DNA of 64,000 nucleotides from Alkalinema sp. FACHB-956. GTDB taxonomy: Bacteria > Cyanobacteriota > Cyanobacteriia > Leptolyngbyales > Leptolyngbyaceae. Location: the NCBI RefSeq assembly GCF_014697025.1, contig NZ_JACJRC010000016.1, forward strand, positions 1 to 64,000, in the 5' to 3' direction. Shown here piece after piece: positions 53,032 through 59,739 of this stretch. A model generated the notes under the pieces. That model was not told the DNA's origin and made no database searches. It saw only the letters and a list, made by a program, of their open reading frames with translations. Positions within the stretch are counted from its first letter, which is position 1, and the number at the start of each line of letters is the position of its first letter. The translations under genes and the position numbers were made by a program.

Positions 53032-53646
53032 ATGAATGTGTTGGCGGAACCGTTGACGATCGCGGCTTCGGCGATGTTGTTGAGTGATGAGCAGTTTTAT
53101 CAGTTGTGTCGGCAGAATGAGGCGCTACGGTTTGAGCTGTCGGCGGAGGGGGAGTTGATTGTTATGTCGCCGGTGGGTGGGGAAAGTGGCAAGCGGGAAA
53201 TGGCGCTGGGGTCGCGGGTGTGGAATTGGAATGAGGCGGCGCAGTTGGGGGAAGTGTTTAGTTCTTCGACGATTTTTCGGTTGCCGAATGGAGCAAAGCG
53301 ATCGCCGGATGTGGCGTGGGTGCGGGGCGATCGGTGGGCGAGTTTGACGCGGGAGGAGCGGGAACAGTTTCCGCCGATCGTTCCGGATTTTGTGATTGAA
53401 TTACGGTCTGCGACGGATGGGTTGGCGAGTTTGCAGCGGAAGATGGTGGAGTATCGGGATTGTGGGGTGCGGTTGGGCTGGTTGATTAATCCGCAGGATG
53501 AGCGGGTGGAGATTTATCGGCCTGGGATGGAGGTGGAGGAGGTGGAGTTGCCTGCGGTGCTGTCGGGGGAGGATGTGCTGCTGGGATTTGAGTTGGAGTT
53601 GCGACGGTTTGATCCCCCTAATCCCCATTATGAAGGGGGACTTTGA
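53032..53646 (+). CDS. Uma2 family protein, first of a tandem near-identical pair
   Basis: 204-residue Uma2/DUF820 protein: LRFELSAEGELIVMSPVGGESGKRE, RSPDVAWVRGDRWASLTREER, VPDFVIELRSATDGLASLQRKMVEY with catalytic-type Glu and Lys, and CGVRLGWLINPQDERVEIYRPG. ATG 53032 has GGGAGGTGG upstream. It is almost identical to the gene at 53740. The difference is a short patch, EMALGSRVWNWNEAAQ here against ESRLIARVDVWNEAAQ there. The last residues (PHYEGGL) are encoded by a dispersed GATCCCCCTAATCCCC repeat. Third codon positions are strongly G-rich, unlike most of the window. Confidence 0.9.
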   Translation: MNVLAEPLTIAASAMLLSDEQFYQLCRQNEALRFELSAEGELIVMSPVGGESGKREMALGSRVWNWNEAAQLGEVFSSSTIFRLPNGAKRSPDVAWVRGDRWASLTREEREQFPPIVPDFVIELRSATDGLASLQRKMVEYRDCGVRLGWLINPQDERVEIYRPGMEVEEVELPAVLSGEDVLLGFELELRRFDPPNPHYEGGL

Positions 53647-53739: not shown

Positions 53740-54354
53740 ATGACTGTGTTGGCGGAACCGTTGACGATCGCAGCTTCGGCGATGTTGTTGAGTGATGAGC
53801 AGTTCTATCAATTGTGTCGTCAGAATGAGGCGTTGCGGTTTGAGCTGTCGGCGGAGGGGGAGTTGATTGTTATGTCGCCAGTGGGTGGGGAAAGTGGGAA
53901 GCGGGAGTCGCGGTTAATTGCGCGGGTGGATGTCTGGAATGAGGCGGCGCAGTTGGGGGAGGTGTTTAGTTCTTCGACGATTTTTCGGTTGCCGAATGGG
54001 GCGAAGCGATCGCCGGATGTGGCGTGGGTGCGGGGCGATCGGTGGGCGAGTTTGACGCGGGAGGAGCGGGAACAGTTTCCGCCGATCGTTCCGGATTTTG
54101 TGATTGAATTACGGTCTGCGACGGATGGGTTGGCGAGTTTGCAGCGGAAGATGGTGGAGTATCGGGATTGTGGGGTGCGGTTGGGCTGGTTGATTAATCC
54201 GCAGGATGAGCGGGTGGAGATTTATCGGCCTGGGATGGAGGTGGAGGAGGTGGAGTTGCCTGCGGTGCTGTCGGGGGAGGATGTGCTGCTGGGATTTGAG
54301 TTGGAGTTGCGACGGTTTGATCCCCCTAATCCCTCTGATTCAGTGAGACATTGA
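53740..54354 (+). CDS. Uma2 family protein, second of a tandem near-identical pair
   Basis: 204 residues, the sister of 53032. DNA identity is essentially complete from about 54012 to 54330 (against 53303-53620) and high elsewhere. A divergent patch around residues 54-62 changes EMALGSRVWNW to ESRLIARVDVW. The family norm for this segment is closer to ESRLIARV as I recall it, so this copy may be the ancestral form. ATG 53740 has GGGAGGTGG upstream as in copy 1. The end (PSDSVRH) differs because the 3' repeat carries an insertion. Adjacent to the NACHT gene on the same strand. Confidence 0.9.
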   Translation: MTVLAEPLTIAASAMLLSDEQFYQLCRQNEALRFELSAEGELIVMSPVGGESGKRESRLIARVDVWNEAAQLGEVFSSSTIFRLPNGAKRSPDVAWVRGDRWASLTREEREQFPPIVPDFVIELRSATDGLASLQRKMVEYRDCGVRLGWLINPQDERVEIYRPGMEVEEVELPAVLSGEDVLLGFELELRRFDPPNPSDSVRH

Positions 54355-54479: not shown

Positions 54480-57341
54480 ATGTTTTTTGAGGGATTGGCG
54501 ACGGCTGGGGCAGTGGGTGTGGGCCAACTGGTGTTTGACCAAGTGCTCAAGCTAGGACAGGCGGCGGCGGAAGATTATGTGAAGGATTTTTTTAAGGATT
54601 CGTTGAAGGCCGGGGTGGCACGGACGAAGCCGGATGTGACGAAGAAGGCGGTGGCGAGTGCGTTGCAGGAGTTTCTGGCGATCGTTGTGGAGGAGTTGGA
54701 GGATCGGGAACTGTCACGGGCGGAGATTCGCGATCGCTATGAGGTGAATTTGGTGCAGTTTGTGCAAGAGGCTGCGGTGAAGCCGTTGCTGGGGCAGGCG
54801 TTTGAGAAGGATTGCAAGCAGGTGGATACGGAGACTCTGGCGGCAGTTTGGCAGCGATCGCAGCGCAAAGGTAAGCCGTTTACGCCGATGCCGGAGGGGT
54901 TTGATTGGGATGGGGTGGGCAGTTTGTATTTGAAGAAGGTACGGCGGATTGTGCGGGAGACGCCGGAGTTGCGGGCACTGCTGGAGGTGGAGTTACAGGA
55001 GCAGCAGGCGGAGAGTTTGCAGCAGCTTGCGGGGGTGAATCCGGGGTTTGATGTGGTGAAGTACCGGGAGAGTTTGCAGTGTAGCTATGGCTATTTGAAG
55101 CTGTATACGTTGGATAGTACCTATCAGGCGGATGCGATCAAGCTGTGGCGGATGTTTATTGAGCAGACGGTGCGGGAGGCGTTGCCGCCGTTGCGCTATG
55201 AGATTCCGCTGGATGTGAAGCGGCAGTTACAGGCGGAGGGGGGATTGGAGGCGGATCTGTCGGCGGAGGCGTTGGCGGTATATCGGCAGGAGTATTTTCA
55301 GCAGCCTGCGCGGAAGGTTTTGGAGGCGGTGGCGGATGCGCAGAAAGCGGTAATTTTGGGTGATCCGGGGGCGGGGAAATCGACGTTGTTGCAGTATTTG
55401 GCATTGGAATGGGTGGAAGATCAAGGGGGTGAGGGGAAGACGCAGGCGTTGCCGTTACTGATTGAGTTACGGGAATATGTGCTGGATGGGGTGAAGGGAT
55501 TTTTGGAGTTTTGGCATCGGGGCAAGGGAGCGGATTGGCTGTTTGATTCGTTGCAGTTAGATCAGTATTTGCAGTCGCAGCCGACGATCGTGATGTTTGA
55601 TGGGTTAGATGAGGTGTTCGATCTAGCGACGCAGGAAGCTATCAAAGATGAGATTGTGCGGTTTAGCCAGCAGTATCCCAAGGCGAAGGTTTTGGTGACT
55701 TCTCGGATTATTGGCTATAACCCGGAGCGCTTGCAGCAGGCGGGTTTTCAGCAGTTTACGATTCAGCCGTTAGATCGGGAGGAGATGCATGAATTTATCG
55801 ATCGCTGGTACGATTTGGCGTTGGGCAGCGATTCGGATAAGGGGCGGTTGGTGACGCAGTTGAAGGATGCGATCGAGCAGTCTCAGGCGATTCAAGATTT
55901 AGCCGACAACCCATTATTGCTGACAATGATGGCAATTTTGAATCTAGAACCAGGGGAATTGCCACAAAAACGTACTGATTTATATAAGCGTGCATCGTTA
56001 CTTCTTGTAAGCAAATGGGATTTAGAACGTAAGTGTTTGCCAGAAGGTTGGGTCGAACCATGGGTAAAGCAAGAAATATTGAGTCTAATTGCTTATGAAA
56101 TGCAAGTGAGCAATGAAGGGTTAAGAGGGAATTTAATTAGCGCAAGACGACTAACACAAATTTTGACAAGTTATTTGCAAGATCAGTGTTTTGAAGCTCC
56201 AAGAGAAAAAGCGAAGAAGCTAATTGAAGAATTTCGGCATCGAAATTGGATTTTGTGCGATCGGGGGGCGGATACTTACGGGTTTGTGCATCGCACGTTT
56301 TTGGAGTATTTTTGCGCGATGGAGATTGTACATCGATTTGAGAAGTCGCGGGAGTTAACGTTTGAGCAGTTACGGGATGAGGTGTTTGGGGGGCATTGGC
56401 AGGATGAGACTTGGCATGAGGTTTTGAGGCTGATTTGTGGAGCGATCGATTCTCAGTTTGCAGGGCAGTTAATTGAATCTTTAATAGGTTTAAAGAGAAG
56501 TGATAGAAAAGATAGTAATCGATTAGAGCAAGAGCTTTATAGTATTTCATTGGCAATTGAATGCTTTGCTCAAATACATAATTCTCAGCCATCTCAGAGA
56601 GTATCAAATGTTTTATTGGAGGCAACTCAACAAGTCTTTCTGGCAGAAAATTATTCGTCATGGTATCCATTAGAACTTATTCGTATGGGCAATGCTGTTT
56701 CATCTATTTGGAAGGAAGATCAGGAGTTGCTGGAATGGCTAATATCTCATCTTGAAAGTTCTACTCCCTTTGCAATATTTGCATTATCAGCAATTTCTAA
56801 AGGTTGGCGAAATAGTATTGATGTACCTCGTTTTCTGATTGATCTAGCGCATAAAAATTACACCCATGCATCATCAGAGGCAGTTAGTGAACTAGCTCGA
56901 AGTTGGAAGTCTGATCCACGAACCTTACCATTACTCAAAACATTAATTCGCCAGAAAAAAAACATACGTCAACCTGCTATTCATGCATTAGCAAGGGGTT
57001 GGAAAGATGAGCCAGATACTTTACTTACTCTTCAGGTTATTGCCTGTGATGGTGATGATCCTTTTGCACAACACATAGCAGTACGGGGAATGCTGACTGT
57101 CTGGGAGGCAAATCTTGATGTCAGAAAATTTCTACTTGATTTCGTAATGGATGATTCTATCCATCAGAAGGAGCATCAAACTGATCATCCACGGCTAGTT
57201 GTACTCATAAGCCTTTCAGACGAATATCCCCTACATCCCGAAACGATCGAACTATTGCGCGATCGCGCCCTCAACGACCCCGACGAGCAACTCCGCCAAT
57301 GGGCACAAGAACAACTTCAAAAACTAGAAAATAGCCCTTGA
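54480..57341 (+). CDS. NACHT-domain NTPase with helical N-terminus and HEAT-like C-terminus
   Basis: 953-residue STAND-type NTPase. Residues 1-130 form a hydrophobic/helical N-terminal domain (FEGLATAGAVGVGQLVFDQVLKLGQAAAEDYVKDFF). Residues ~285-420 form the NACHT core: Walker A GDPGAGKST (294-302), Walker B IVMFDGLDEV (370-379), sensor VLVTSRIIGY. A winged-helix part (ADNPLLLTMMAIL, FVHRTFLEYFCAMEI) and ~330 residues of HEAT-like helices follow. It ends LLRDRALNDPDEQLRQWAQEQL. Bacterial NACHT proteins are known in antiphage immunity, sensing in the C-terminus and signalling through the N-terminus; that role is inferred. G-rich codons up to ~55.9 kb alternate with AT-rich stretches (55.9-56.2 and 56.5-57.2 kb), a mosaic pattern. 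Its last 100 bases recur four times downstream. Confidence 0.92.
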   Translation: MFFEGLATAGAVGVGQLVFDQVLKLGQAAAEDYVKDFFKDSLKAGVARTKPDVTKKAVASALQEFLAIVVEELEDRELSRAEIRDRYEVNLVQFVQEAAVKPLLGQAFEKDCKQVDTETLAAVWQRSQRKGKPFTPMPEGFDWDGVGSLYLKKVRRIVRETPELRALLEVELQEQQAESLQQLAGVNPGFDVVKYRESLQCSYGYLKLYTLDSTYQADAIKLWRMFIEQTVREALPPLRYEIPLDVKRQLQAEGGLEADLSAEALAVYRQEYFQQPARKVLEAVADAQKAVILGDPGAGKSTLLQYLALEWVEDQGGEGKTQALPLLIELREYVLDGVKGFLEFWHRGKGADWLFDSLQLDQYLQSQPTIVMFDGLDEVFDLATQEAIKDEIVRFSQQYPKAKVLVTSRIIGYNPERLQQAGFQQFTIQPLDREEMHEFIDRWYDLALGSDSDKGRLVTQLKDAIEQSQAIQDLADNPLLLTMMAILNLEPGELPQKRTDLYKRASLLLVSKWDLERKCLPEGWVEPWVKQEILSLIAYEMQVSNEGLRGNLISARRLTQILTSYLQDQCFEAPREKAKKLIEEFRHRNWILCDRGADTYGFVHRTFLEYFCAMEIVHRFEKSRELTFEQLRDEVFGGHWQDETWHEVLRLICGAIDSQFAGQLIESLIGLKRSDRKDSNRLEQELYSISLAIECFAQIHNSQPSQRVSNVLLEATQQVFLAENYSSWYPLELIRMGNAVSSIWKEDQELLEWLISHLESSTPFAIFALSAISKGWRNSIDVPRFLIDLAHKNYTHASSEAVSELARSWKSDPRTLPLLKTLIRQKKNIRQPAIHALARGWKDEPDTLLTLQVIACDGDDPFAQHIAVRGMLTVWEANLDVRKFLLDFVMDDSIHQKEHQTDHPRLVVLISLSDEYPLHPETIELLRDRALNDPDEQLRQWAQEQLQKLENSP
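57241..57341 (+). repeat. NACHT 3'-tail repeat, copy 0 (within the gene)
   Basis: The reference copy, encoding TIELLRDRALNDPDEQLRQW and AQEQLQKLENSP up to the stop. Four decayed copies follow at 57625, 58272, 59044 and 59588. Confidence 0.85.
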
Positions 57342-57376: not shown

Positions 57377-57610
57377 ATGAAAACTCTAGACATCAACCAA
57401 ACCATCACCAACTGGACAAACCTTTCCAGCACTATCTTTGTTCCCCGCACTGAAGCTGAATATGACGCATTAGTCGAACTGCTCGATCGGTTAATCGATC
57501 AAGTCGGTGAAGACGAAACCCATCCCCTCGCCTCCATGATGGATGTCATTGGCGCACTCATCGAAAACTATGAAACTGCCAACGTACCAGAATTAGAAGC
57601 CGCTTCTTGA
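57377..57610 (+). CDS. HigA-like antitoxin N-terminal domain protein (no HTH)
   Basis: 77 residues from ATG 57377: MKTLDINQTITNWTNLSSTI, then EAEYDALVELLDRLIDQVGE, then DETHPLASMMDVIGALIENYETANVPELEAAS. This resembles the N-terminal helical part of HigA-type antitoxins, where an Asp/Glu-rich HPLA..LLG..IEDYE block precedes the HTH. The HTH is missing and NACHT-tail copy 1 begins 15 bases after the stop, so the gene may be truncated at the repeat; short family members also exist. No toxin gene is adjacent. 36 bases downstream of the NACHT stop. Confidence 0.7.
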   Translation: MKTLDINQTITNWTNLSSTIFVPRTEAEYDALVELLDRLIDQVGEDETHPLASMMDVIGALIENYETANVPELEAAS

Positions 57611-57624
57611 CCCGCGATGGAATT

Positions 57625-57722
57625 CGATCGAACGATTGCGCGATCGTGCCCTCAACGACCCCGACTCCAAACTCCGCCAATGGGCACAAGAATAACTGCA
57701 AAAGCTGGAGACTCAGCAATAG
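57625..57722 (+). repeat. NACHT 3'-tail repeat, copy 1 (decayed)
   Basis: In the NACHT frame it reads SIERLRDRALNDPDSKLRQW, AQE, stop, LQKLETQQ, stop. A TAA replaces the Gln codon of copy 0. No gene uses it. Confidence 0.9.
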
Positions 57723-57784
57723 CAGACTAGCTTGAATTGAGCTTATAATCGAGTATGGCATGGCTACCTCACAGGAGGCTAAAC

Positions 57785-58021
57785 GTGGAATCCACCATCG
57801 ACATCCCAGGACTTAAAGCCCTCATCAAAGAAACCATGCGAGAAGTCCTCCAAGAGGAACGAATTCTTCTCTGCAAAATGCTCATGCCCTACATTAGTGA
57901 CGAAGAGCAAGCTGAAATCAACGCTCAGTTTGGCAAACCTGGTGATGACGAAGATGAAGAATGGATTGACATGACAGAGTGGGTCAAACATGGTGGTCAG
58001 ATTCCGGAAACAAGCAATTAA
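57785..58021 (+). CDS. Antitoxin of RelE/ParE-type module
   Basis: 78 residues from GTG 57785, strongly supported by AGGAGG at 57772-57777. Sequence MESTIDIPGLKALIKETMRE, VLQEERILLCKMLMPYISDE, then an acidic C-terminus GDDEDEEWIDMTEWVKHGGQIPETSN. The helical N-terminus and acidic tail suit an antitoxin that binds and blocks a basic toxin. It overlaps the toxin gene at 57990 by 32 bases, so the pair is translationally coupled. The family name is not recognised; the call comes from arrangement. Confidence 0.75.
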   Translation: MESTIDIPGLKALIKETMREVLQEERILLCKMLMPYISDEEQAEINAQFGKPGDDEDEEWIDMTEWVKHGGQIPETSN

Positions 58022-58268
58022 GTTTCTCCAAAAATCAAACCCAAAGCTCGTTGCTGAAATTCAAGAACAGCTTAACCAGATTGATGCATCGATCGAACTC
58101 CAGTCAATCATCCCTTTCACAGAACTCGACATTACAAAGATGAAAGGAGATTGGGCTGGGTATTTTCGGCTACGTATCGGTGATATTCGAGTCATTTTCA
58201 CCGTAGATGATGAATCTGGCAACGTCGATGTTTACAAAATAGGCAATCGTGGTGATGTTTACAAGTGA
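57990..58268 (+). CDS. RelE/ParE-family toxin
   Basis: 92 residues, ATG 57990. RelE/ParE fold: VVRFRKQAIKFLQKSNPKLVAEIQEQLNQID helices, DITKMKGDWAGYFRLRIGDIRVIFTVDDESGNVDVYKIGNRGDVYK strands. The conserved R-x-R-x-G-D-x-R-V-x-F and the final I-G-x-R-G-x-V-Y motif of mRNA-cleaving RelE-type toxins are complete. The preceding overlapping gene is the antitoxin. NACHT-tail copy 2 begins four bases after the stop. Both genes appear intact and probably functional. Confidence 0.88.
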   Translation: MVVRFRKQAIKFLQKSNPKLVAEIQEQLNQIDASIELQSIIPFTELDITKMKGDWAGYFRLRIGDIRVIFTVDDESGNVDVYKIGNRGDVYK

Positions 58269-58271
58269 TTC

Positions 58272-58346
58272 TCTCCTCAATGACCCCGACTCCAACTCCG
58301 CCAATGGACACAAGAACAAATACAAAAACTAGAGCCTAGCTCTTGA
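58272..58346 (+). repeat. NACHT 3'-tail repeat, copy 2 (partial, frameshifted)
   Basis: Starts at the LNDPD portion (CTCAATGACCCCGACTCC), has a one-base deletion relative to copy 1, and ends AAACTAGAGCCTAGCTCTTGATA. Only the downstream two thirds remain. Confidence 0.85.
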
Positions 58347-58417
58347 TACAACAGAACTCGATCGACAGATAGAAGTCCCCAAAAAATTATAGTTTTACAA
58401 TAAAAGGAGTCCTCATA

Positions 58418-58666
58418 ATGGCTGAAAACACTGTGAAACTAGAACAACAAGTTGAGTTCGAGTCTTTACTCGCAGTAGTCTCATCTCTCAATAAGGCTGA
58501 TAAGCATAAACTCCTAGAAATCTTAGAGGATCAACTGTTTGACGATGCTCTAGAAAACGATCCAGAACTGATGGCAGAGATTGAAACCGCTCGTGCTGAC
58601 TATGCCGCAGGGGACTACATCACCTTTGAAGAATATCTTGCCCAACGTCGAGCCTCCGGTGTATGA
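58418..58666 (+). CDS. Antitoxin of a RelE module
   Basis: 82 residues: MAENTVKLEQQVEFESLLAV, then SSLNKADKHKLLEILEDQLFDDALENDPELMAEIETARADYAAGDYITFEEYLAQRRASGV. The C-terminal ARADYAAGDYITFEEYLAQR is the toxin-binding tail seen in cyanobacterial RelB/Phd-like partners of RelE. AAAAGGAG precedes ATG 58418. The ATGA overlap with the next gene indicates coupling. Likely intact. Confidence 0.8.
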   Translation: MAENTVKLEQQVEFESLLAVVSSLNKADKHKLLEILEDQLFDDALENDPELMAEIETARADYAAGDYITFEEYLAQRRASGV

Positions 58667-58923
58667 CCTATCAAGTTACTGTTCCCAAAGCTGTCCAAAA
58701 ACAAATTGATGCACTGCCGCTGGAAATCCTCGATCGTGTTGCAGAAATCATTCAGGATTTAGCTGAAAATCCACGCCCTAATGGTGTTACAAAACTAAAA
58801 GGCAGCGATCGTACCTATCGCCTCCGAGTGAGTGATTATCGAATTGTGTACGATATTTACGATAAGGAGTGAGTGATTGTGCTAATTCGATGTCAGCATC
58901 GACAGGAGGTTTATCGCAAATGA
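58663..58923 (+). pseudogene. RelE-family toxin with in-frame nonsense codon
   Basis: ATG 58663 gives MTYQVTVPKAVQKQIDALPL, EILDRVAEIIQDLAENPRPNGVTKLKGSDRTYRLRVSDYRIVYDIYDKE, then TGA at 58870-58872. The same frame continues VIVLIRCQHRQEVYRK to TGA 58921-58923. The continuation supplies the last RelE strand with the H-R-x-E-V-Y-R catalytic end, so an 85-residue toxin has lost its C-terminal 16 residues by a point mutation. The truncated 69-residue protein still has the RNA-binding strands but should be inactive. Confidence 0.87.
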
Positions 58924-59030
58924 TCCTGCACTATTCCGAAGACAATCAACTCGTACTCATTGAAATCCTCGACCTCGCTCAGTTTCTCGCCACCAATGAT
59001 GGTGAATTCCAAGAACTGATCTACACCTAA
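58920..59030 (+). CDS. Small ORF coupled to the relE pseudogene (DUF2283-like?)
   Basis: 36 residues: MILHYSEDNQLVLIEILDLA followed by QFLATNDGEFQELIYT. ATG 58920 overlaps the original relE stop as ATGA, and AGGAGG lies at 58904-58909, so translation is plausible. The opening (hydrophobic-H-Y-S-E-D) and VLIEILD recall DUF2283 proteins with an internal deletion; not certain. It may be a remnant or a small antitoxin-like protein. NACHT-tail copy 3 starts 13 bases later. Confidence 0.45.
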   Translation: MILHYSEDNQLVLIEILDLAQFLATNDGEFQELIYT

Positions 59031-59043
59031 GATCAAGGTCCTA

Positions 59044-59141
59044 CGATCGAACGATTGCGCGATCGCGCCCTCAACGCCCCTGACGATCAACTCCGCCAAT
59101 CGGCACAAGAACAACTGCAAAAACTAGAGCCTAGCCCCTAG
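59044..59141 (+). repeat. NACHT 3'-tail repeat, copy 3 (frame still open)
   Basis: Reads TIERLRDRALNAPDDQLRQS then AQEQLQKLEPSP and TAG in the NACHT frame; best preserved of the downstream copies. No start codon with a binding site precedes it. Confidence 0.9.
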
Positions 59142-59200: not shown

Positions 59201-59443
59201 ATGACACATCAGCTTCAACAGGCCATCACCCTGGCGCAGTCTTTATCGATCGAAGATCAGCTTGAACTCTTAAAAACCCTGTCAGCAATGATTCAGCAAA
59301 ATTATGCACTGGAAAATGGCGATAATGACAACGATGATGAAGTTAAATTCTCCGCAGAAAGTTTCAGCCGTTCTTGGCATCAAATGATGACCGGCCAAAC
59401 TTTCCCATTAGAACAGCTATGGGAAGACTCAGACGATGAGTGA
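59201..59443 (+). CDS. Antitoxin of a RelE/YafQ-type module
   Basis: 80 residues: MTHQLQQAITLAQSLSIEDQ, then LELLKTLSAMIQQNY and an acidic, Asn/Asp-rich spacer, ending SWHQMMTGQTFPLEQLWEDSDDE. A helical N-terminus plus an acidic C-terminus with conserved aromatic residues is typical of cyanobacterial antitoxins. CAAGGAGG precedes ATG 59201 closely. It overlaps the start of the truncated toxin at 59436 by eight bases. Intact, but its toxin is broken. Confidence 0.72.
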   Translation: MTHQLQQAITLAQSLSIEDQLELLKTLSAMIQQNYALENGDNDNDDEVKFSAESFSRSWHQMMTGQTFPLEQLWEDSDDE

Positions 59444-59672
59444 TAATCCTCCACCCATCCAGATACAATTCACCTCAGAATTTAACCGCAAATTCAAGGC
59501 TCTCAAAAAAAGATACCGAAATATTCAATCCGACTTGCAGCCTGTTCTAGAAGAATATTGCTCAATATCCTGTATCAACCATTTGGTAACGATCGTGCCC
59601 TCAACGATCCCGACGATCAACTCCGCCAATGGGCACAGGAACAACTCAAAAAAACTAAAGCCTAGCCCTTGA
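59436..59672 (+). pseudogene. RelE/YafQ-type toxin truncated by fusion with a NACHT tail
   Basis: ATG 59436 begins MSDNPPPIQIQFTSEFNRKF, then KALKKRYRNIQSDLQPVLEE, the first two helices of a RelE-family mRNA interferase. After about 59560 the sequence no longer resembles a toxin. From 59588 the DNA is NACHT-tail copy 4 read in another frame (ending STIPTINSANGHRNNSKKLKPSP). The catalytic strands are therefore missing. The 78-codon frame is open by chance. Confidence 0.8.
59588..59671 (+). repeat. NACHT 3'-tail repeat, copy 4 (fused into a toxin gene)
   Basis: In the NACHT frame reads DRALNDPDDQLRQWAQEQLK, KTKA, stop. Its left end replaces the 3' part of the RelE-type toxin gene. Confidence 0.88.
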
Positions 59673-59706
59673 AAGCGACAATATACCTGAATTTGAAGCA
59701 GCCTCC

Positions 59707-59739
59707 AAAAACCAGGATTTTTAGAAAATCCCGGTTTTT
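59707..59739. repeat. Palindromic repeat, short copy D
   Basis: AAAAACCAGGATTTT and AAAATCCCGGTTTTT around TAG: a shortened, diverged member of the family at 149, 837 and 1622. It also marks the right boundary of the TA array and could terminate transcription on both strands. Confidence 0.65.

Follow-up and report, generated by a model that had tools for sequence, protein, structure and literature searches.

Copies of its own 3′ end separate toxin–antitoxin modules behind a cyanobacterial NACHT receptor gene whose sensor appears to be exchanged as a block

The window analysed here is a stretch of 64,000 nt from Alkalinema sp. FACHB-956 (contig NZ_JACJRC010000016.1, positions 1 to 64,000 of the forward strand). 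An uninterrupted frame at 54480–57341 encodes a 953-amino acid (aa) NACHT protein, referred to below as the receptor, and the gene is followed by an array of toxin–antitoxin (TA) modules. Within that array the last ~95 nt of the receptor gene (the tail) are repeated: a repeat search combined with a DNA search of the whole genome found five copies in total, all in 57.2–59.7 kb, and the whole-genome search found none elsewhere. The first sign of this arrangement came from a protein search of the same genome, which gave two extra sites matching only residues 921–953; its other matches to the receptor were 27–32% identical and lay over the NACHT part. All tail copies end near a stop codon, and their start points differ. 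Each of the four copies downstream of the gene (orphan tails) closes a TA module (Table 1), and the RelB-like/ParE pair is the only pair in the array that appears whole. The antitoxin open reading frame (ORF) next to the receptor gene is presumably a HigA. No Rfam family was found in 52–64 kb and no tRNA in the window.

By sequence and predicted structure, the receptor is a bacterial STAND ATPase related to NOD-like receptors (NLRs), with NNH2 helices, a NACHT/winged-helix switch, a HEAT superhelix as putative sensor and a conserved last HEAT repeat. Pfam placed NNH2 at residues 26–212 (E 3e-59) and NACHT at residues 291–444 (38.9 bits, cut-off 26.7), and a HEAT_2 stretch came out marginally below its cut-off; the Walker A motif GDPGAGKS is invariant across the receptor alignment. 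An AlphaFold model built on a 31-row alignment (mean predicted local distance difference test score 78, predicted template modelling score 0.62) has a helical N-terminus, the NTPase and a helical superhelix at residues 643–951. An initial annotation, made from the sequence alone, had described an N-terminal helical domain, an NTPase core and a HEAT-like sensor. The solved structures ranked highest by Foldseek were NLRC4, NOD2 and NLRP3, with low full-length template modelling scores (mostly 0.24–0.34 of query); together with the model, they point to a tripartite fold with a C-terminal repeat sensor. A sequence search of the PDB with the receptor gave no match. The annotation had recognised no effector signature in the N-terminal helical domain, and this holds, since Pfam assigns only NNH2 there, for which we know of no effector activity. 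Two distant plasmid relatives were also found (44% and 42%).

Table 1. Features of the receptor gene and its downstream array, and other genes of the same genome with duplicated 3′ ends (GC3, G3 and C3, fractions of G+C, G and C at third codon positions; L numbers, our locus designations)
Feature	Position	Strand	Evidence or remarks
NNH2-NACHT-HEAT STAND ATPase gene, 953 aa	54480..57341	+	ORF; Pfam; AlphaFold model; Foldseek
G-rich-wobble part of conserved core, residues 1–480	54480..55919	+	GC3 0.69, G3 0.61, C3 0.07; conserved in alignments
AT-rich patch within conserved core, residues 481–580, possible gene conversion	55920..56219	+	GC3 0.29
G-rich end of conserved core, residues 581–650	56220..56429	+	GC3 0.54, G3 0.49
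AT-rich hypervariable HEAT sensor, residues 651–915	56430..57224	+	GC3 0.25
Gene copy of tail repeat (C-rich end, last HEAT repeat)	57243..57337	+	repeat and DNA searches
HigA-like antitoxin ORF without HigB partner	57377..57610	+	no Pfam match; homologues adjoin Pfam HigB in L140, L067, L070
Orphan tail 1, 82%, stop inside	57624..57718	+	repeat searches
RelB-like antitoxin, pool member RelB1	57755..58021	+	Pfam RelB_like_antitoxin E 6e-4, under its cut-off
ParE-type toxin	57990..58268	+	Pfam ParE_toxin over cut-off
Orphan tail 2, 85%, shortened	58275..58348	+	repeat searches
Antitoxin-like ORF, pool member RelB2	58418..58666	+	tblastn to L173 module; family matches weak only
ParE-type toxin cut by stop	58663..58872	+	Pfam ParE_toxin; homology runs on to 58920
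DUF2283-like remnant	58917..58997	+	tblastn 70% to L172 module
Orphan tail 3, 91%	59043..59137	+	repeat searches
Antitoxin-like ORF, pool member Anti4	59201..59443	+	tblastn 54% to L069 module; no Pfam match
5′ part of RelE-type toxin gene, ends before tail	59436..59555	+	tblastn 47% over 40 residues
Orphan tail 4, 87%	59590..59672	+	repeat searches
HigA-like C-terminal remnant behind last tail	59671..59724	+	translation compared by eye with 57377–57610
RecN-like gene with 3′-end copy	L192 6454–8045		182-nt, 97% copy 1.27 kb downstream; ORF between without Pfam match
MetH-like gene with 3′-end copy	L194 7636–8705		109 columns, 83%; XisH and XisI between
NNH5-NACHT-WD40 gene, second NLR, with 3′-end copy	L196 14454–15353		85 nt, 92%, copy 0.77 kb downstream; 84-aa ORF and HNH gene between
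RibF-like gene with 3′-end copy	L199 15368–18727		71 nt, 99%, copy 3.25 kb downstream; DUF2283, DUF4258, AAA/TPR gene between

In an alignment with seven relatives, the receptor is tightly conserved until about residue 655, similarity then collapses, and six of the seven regain it in their final ~33 residues (the seventh, L046, runs off its contig). When core and sensor were compared separately over 62 loci (1,891 pairs), several pairs combined nearly identical cores with sensors that are no longer alike: core and sensor protein identities were 96 and 27% for L065–L066, 96 and 31% for L073–L074, 95 and 32% for L068–L069 and 92 and 28% for L075–L077, and cores of 90–96% with sensors of 24–32% were also found in L065–L067, L065–L070 (short stretch) and L077–L079. 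Other pairs retained the sensor (93 and 86% in L066–L067; 91 and 65% in L075–L079). At the DNA level, identity in the exchanged pairs examined drops at gene nt ~1920–2010 (90-nt windows), i.e. at ~56.40–56.49 kb or about residue 640–670. In several pairs the core DNA is ~80–100% identical up to nt ~1920 and falls to background within one or two such windows, and in most exchanged pairs identity comes back in the tail. In L076–L114, a diverged sensor lies between flanks that are 91–98% (upstream) and 83–100% (downstream) identical; the L076 copy may be broken, because its frame has only 732 aa and its tail is in another frame. Since sensors do not align, a tree was built for the core only. Sensor exchange in this receptor family is well supported by these comparisons. 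The initial annotation had proposed a swap of the sensor part on grounds of composition; the DNA comparison, with cores alike and sensors unrelated, bears out the swap for the family, whereas the compositional argument is weakened by AT-rich sensors being common to near homologues.

Six distant relatives (L054, L056, L057, L059, L061 and L062) carry runs of near-identical 102-nt (34-aa) repeats in the HEAT region, as if their sensors grew by repeat duplication. At L055 (genome G025), a very long self-similar repeat region of ~6.7 kb, possibly a CRISPR-like array, lies behind a split NACHT relative.

The mosaic composition itself was confirmed by sliding-window GC3, with borders near 55,919, 56,219, 56,429 and 57,224 that match closely those described previously. 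The C-rich end reported there likewise proved real (residues 916–953, 38 codons at 57225–57338; C3 0.37, G3 0.11) and coincides with the gene copy of the tail; the annotation had drawn no connection between this end and the repeats downstream. GC3 over 60-codon windows has a range of 0.58 in the receptor gene versus a mean of 0.31 (standard deviation 0.12) in 32 genes of at least 600 codons, taken from the window and 400 kb of the same genome; a range of 0.58 was reached by 3 of the 32, which makes it unusual and not unique. The switches had been placed near domain borders, and this was not so for the one at 55.9 kb, which lies inside the conserved core; the relatives lose similarity some 0.5 kb further on. 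Sensor GC3 is low (0.26–0.35) in 22 near homologues, in which core bins 1–480 span 0.33 to 0.72, which makes an AT-rich sensor largely a feature of the family rather than a sign that this one was imported recently; among nine more distant homologues it is 0.30–0.57 and not below the core in three. By the annotation's own criterion, a composition shared with homologues would argue against exchange; as near homologues commonly have AT-rich sensors, composition was rejected as sufficient proof of it. The drop over residues 481–580 is found only here: relative to the gene's own core it amounts to −0.39, and the next largest among 31 others is about −0.05. This patch is possibly a gene-conversion tract, because its residues 481–530 are 62% identical to the nearest relative (L046) and 43–52% identical to the other 30. 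As for the G-rich wobble positions, only five ORFs in a sample of 252 have a G3 of at least 0.55, among them the two near-identical tandem Uma2-family genes directly upstream of the receptor (53032–53646 and 53740–54354, 708-nt spacing, G3 0.64, C3 0.03–0.04). The region also displays a strong GC skew that is independent of gene strand, the plus strand being G-rich from ~52 to 56 kb and C-rich at 61–63 kb.

The distribution of tails was analysed with protein and DNA profiles on 78 loci obtained in one scan of the genome collection, on the window and on stretches of other genomes. Many loci are contigs of metagenome-assembled genomes; the same pattern is seen in isolates, for example Nodosilinea nodulosa PCC 7104 and Stenomitos frigidus ULC18. 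Tails were counted at the 51 loci where the end of the gene could be located. L052 was dropped beforehand (second tail only 15.7 bits), as was L103 (weak upstream match, E 0.006); also dropped, and not among the 51, were L115 (tail far past the frame end) and L118, where a tail stands at the contig start, upstream of the NACHT match, and is probably the end of another gene because its frame runs off the contig. Across the 51 loci there are 14 additional tails, all of them downstream; none was found upstream and the minus strand has none. For L064 (E 1e-4) and L079, only the DNA profile detected the orphan tail. A tree of the core that contains the window as well groups 27 rows into one clade (100/100). 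Of the 12 labelled rows this clade holds 11, and the remaining one is the distant L057; supported branches require at least seven changes. Among the loci from the genome collection, orphan tails occur in 11 of 27 in the near clade and in none of the distant ones. Genes of the TA pool, i.e. those used as queries for TA modules, lie within 2 kb downstream in 19/27 near-clade loci and within 2 kb upstream in 1/23, the corresponding figures for distant loci being 2/22 and 0/22. As a background comparison, copies of the 3′ end within 5 kb were counted for 26 NACHT genes and 323 other ORFs; 9 and 8, respectively, have one (odds ratio 21, P = 3e-7).

By our own count, 22 of the 24 intervals between tails hold TA-pool genes, in varying order; that of L085 is 5 kb long and holds other genes as well. 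Toxins between tails were assigned by Pfam to PemK, ParE, ParE-like, PIN, RelE and HigB. The same modules recur at different loci: RelB1/ParE1 in the window, L068, L077 and L172; HigB/HigA in L067, L069, L070, L140 and L172 (HigB partly broken in L069 and L172); VapC5 in L071, L075 and L140; and Anti6 in L069, L079, L084 and L096. A tail search of 42 genomes of the window's family added L172, where a sensor-plus-tail fragment precedes four TA modules with tails between them. It also added solo tails before a RelB2/ParE2 pair at L173, L174 and L179, of which L173 and L174 have no NACHT gene and L179 is at a contig start.

Three pairs of loci part at a tail (L068/L069, L087/L069 and L073/L074). 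A stretch of 3.4 kb that starts 1.5 kb upstream and reaches into the core is common to L068 and L069 (88%), and the orphan tail of L068 with the following RAYT gene aligns as one block with the gene tail and RAYT gene of L069, from which it follows that the two loci differ by one ~646-nt unit (RelB1/ParE1 plus tail) and by the sensor. The gene tail of L087 and the Anti3/RelE3 genes behind it correspond to orphan tail 2 of L069 and the same genes (748 columns, 85%). L073 and L074 are alike in the core (94%), the tail and a second tail (200 nt, 86.5%), beyond which one has HigA and the other RelB2/ParE2. Identity of orphan tails to their own gene tail is 0.81 (n = 20) versus 0.69 to the gene tails of other loci (n = 260), although a few match better elsewhere. 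An insertion of 22–26 nt at one site is found in six orphan tails (three at L069 and one each at L087, L081 and L085) and in none of 14 aligned gene tails, a pattern suggesting that units also take tails along when they move. We take this insertion to be reminiscent of the small dispersed repeats of cyanobacteria.

Comparison of the loci shows the repeats, a shared TA pool in varying order, block-wise differences between sensors and three pairs parting at a tail. On balance, we think it probable that the tail is a recombination joint for both sensor swaps and the gain or loss of TA cassettes. The 3′-terminal ~95 nt of the gene would serve two exchanges: the sensor between core end and tail would be replaced as a block through core homology on its left and tail homology on its right, and TA modules that end in a tail copy would be gained, lost or exchanged by crossing-over between tails. 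A unit of TA module and tail added at the gene's own tail would leave the receptor gene intact with the TA genes behind it, so that the array would grow as gene, tail, TA, tail, TA, tail. The exchanges would presumably proceed by ordinary homologous (RecA-type) recombination, and the receptor protein may sense phage. By analogy with integrons, where a title cited in PMC11023631 credits TA modules with a stabilizing role, TA addiction may help to keep the arrays.

Several observations weigh against this reading. Conservation at synonymous sites of the tail is not out of the ordinary (z 1.3; values as high occur in 11 of 109 core windows). No orphan tail is found in 16 of the 27 clade loci, and 8 of the 27 have no pool TA within 2 kb. 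Solo tails at L175 and L177 have no pool gene beside them, and that of L176 stands only before a RAYT gene. The two inter-tail intervals without TA are those of L073 and L074, where a second, shortened tail is directly behind the first. Core and sensor identities correlate (Spearman 0.40 over the 1,891 pairs), and therefore sensors also descend vertically. The comparisons give no polarity to the gain or loss of units. L066 and L067 share the sensor and differ in the first TA, so that exchange of sensor and TA is at most loosely coupled; strict coupling was rejected on this account. Finally, the TA-pool queries were derived from these same arrays; only the Pfam scans are independent, and these are therefore the fairer control. 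At loci that lack orphan tails (38 loci, 97 downstream ORFs) they found ParE 3, PIN 3, HigB 2, RelE 2, PIN_2 1 and Gp49 1, and in 104 upstream ORFs of 45 loci ParE 1, Unstab_antitox 1, DUF5615 1 and DUF433 1 among the 25 of 33 families listed (one protein may match two families).

A more far-reaching version, in which sensor, tail, TA and tail recombine at core and tail as one package and TA modules thereby drive receptor evolution, seems to us doubtful. A new sensor would here replace the old one and leave a new addiction module behind it; cells losing the package would suffer, and the TA would therefore select for the new sensor. The row of TA modules and tails would then be a layered record of past sensor changes. 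The difference between L068 and L069 fits such an event, because sensor and first TA-tail unit differ together; L066/L067, where sensor and unit have parted, limits it.

The tails could instead be scars of deletion: tandem NACHT-TA operons would have lost their NACHT bodies by recombination between homologous genes, with tails left between the TA modules. The sensor-plus-tail fragment before the array of L172, the solo tails before TA genes at L173 and L174 and the differing start points of tails are what this would produce. We nevertheless find it unlikely, given that L068 and L069 differ at the array by a TA module plus tail with no NACHT body, that the same modules stand in differing order at different loci, and that an array would need many independent losses all halting at the same ~95 nt.

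Quite improbable, in our estimate, is site-specific accretion, whereby the TA units would behave as small integrative cassettes and a recombinase supplied in trans, such as an integron integrase, would mobilise them with the gene's 3′ end as attachment site. The units do stand in tandem at a gene 3′ end bounded by direct repeats, other genes of this genome have duplicated 3′ ends too, and an integron integrase over the curated cut-off is present in 28 of the 42 genomes of the window's family, including its own. However, that integrase gene is on contig C24 and the array is on C16, with no integrase gene at the array; and genome G020 has an array and no integrase at E ≤ 1e-60. Around five of the family's integrase genes, no tail and only one weak TA-pool match were found. 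No recombinase was found among the unit ORFs scanned with Pfam (elsewhere in the genome recombinases were searched only as TIGR02249). Tail borders vary, DNA folds of the tails are unremarkable (z −0.8 to −2.1), and a crude scan, run without a positive control and giving no convincing site near the five integrase genes either, found no attC-like site in the array. Together with the non-significant synonymous-site test, the lack of an Rfam family and integrases that are not tied to arrays, these results gave no sign of a dedicated recombination site or enzyme within the scope of the scans, and such a site in the tail was set aside.

It is very improbable that no exchange took place, i.e. that sensors evolve very fast under selection and drift towards AT-rich codons while tails are chance duplications: the low sensor GC3 of near homologues would agree with this, but identity is lost abruptly past nt ~1920 in several pairs, others with similar cores keep 65–86% sensor identity, and tail copies are ~20 times commoner than for other genes. 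That a NACHT protein with no recognisable effector of its own uses the TA toxins as working partners or as effectors is hardly credible either, despite the place of TA genes directly behind the receptor in 19/27 clade loci and an NNH2 domain without known effector activity, as the TA families vary by locus, many are broken and 8/27 loci have no pool TA nearby.

Duplicated 3′ ends are not confined to the receptor. A scan of 1.264 Mb of the same genome (1004 ORFs of at least 100 aa, copies within 4 kb) found 3′-end copies for 10 ORFs, seven of them copies of the end only, and, besides the NACHT gene, four genes have repeats of at least 71 nt that reach the stop codon (Table 1); a match on C2 (41–48 nt) and one on C3 (copy directly behind the gene, unconfirmed) were not counted as modules. 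The control scan for 5′-end copies upstream gave 3 of 982: one is the Uma2 duplicate, and the others measure 25 and 31 nt. By eye, a DUF433-like sequence follows the 3′-end copy of the NNH5-NACHT-WD40 gene. We regard small modules at duplicated gene 3′ ends as a lead to a wider process and not as proof of one. If sensor and TA did recombine as a package, the array would exemplify a general process by which small TA or defence modules are placed at the 3′ ends of genes and those ends are rebuilt. This bears on how bacterial NLR-like receptors gain new specificities: the family offers near-identical signalling cores, unrelated sensors, a narrow interval in which exchange starts and a repeat that may tie sensor exchange to TA gain and loss. 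Two questions become testable: whether receptor diversification is stabilized or driven by TA systems, and by what route small modules that lack their own recombinase arrive at the 3′ ends of genes. Orphan 3′-end copies would also provide a simple search rule for new defence modules.

Known systems resemble parts of this locus. In accretion of integrative and conjugative elements and cis-mobilizable elements at gene 3′ ends, tandem units lie between copies of the host gene's 3′ end; direct repeats of the gene's 3′ end also flank each unit of the array, which differs in that its units are <1 kb, no recombinase was found in them and the repeat borders vary. We recognised no paper describing TA arrays behind NACHT genes in the open-licence text searched, which does not imply absence from print. 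Like the bNACHT proteins described in passages of PMC12169576, the receptor has a central NACHT domain, C-terminal repeats (the sensing part in bNACHT) and an N-terminal domain in the effector position; unlike them, its N-terminus is an NNH2 domain without known effector, its sensor appears to be exchanged as a block and a TA-tail array lies behind it. Diversity-generating retroelements, as far as part of PMC10907252 describes them, act on NTPase-linked hypervariable sensors in filamentous cyanobacteria; the sensors here are also hypervariable, whereas the change appears to be a block replacement over ~250 residues and not a set of targeted point changes. Integron arrays with TA cassettes, as outlined in a portion of PMC11023631, are rows of small units with one repeat per unit, and the array has the same build and the same TA cargo; in contrast to integrons, it has no integrase beside it and no attC found by the crude scan, and what is repeated is the end of the receptor's own coding sequence. 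In polymorphic toxin loci, excerpts of PMC3482391 describe a constant 5′ body, a recombined 3′ part and strings of 3′ immunity genes left over from earlier exchanges. The receptor family likewise has a C-terminal region replaced on a constant 5′ body and a row of genes downstream, and these loci are the nearest precedent for such remnants; here, however, the variable part is a HEAT sensor behind NACHT and not a toxin on a secreted protein, the downstream genes are TA modules, and the repeat that closes each unit is the gene's own 3′ end.

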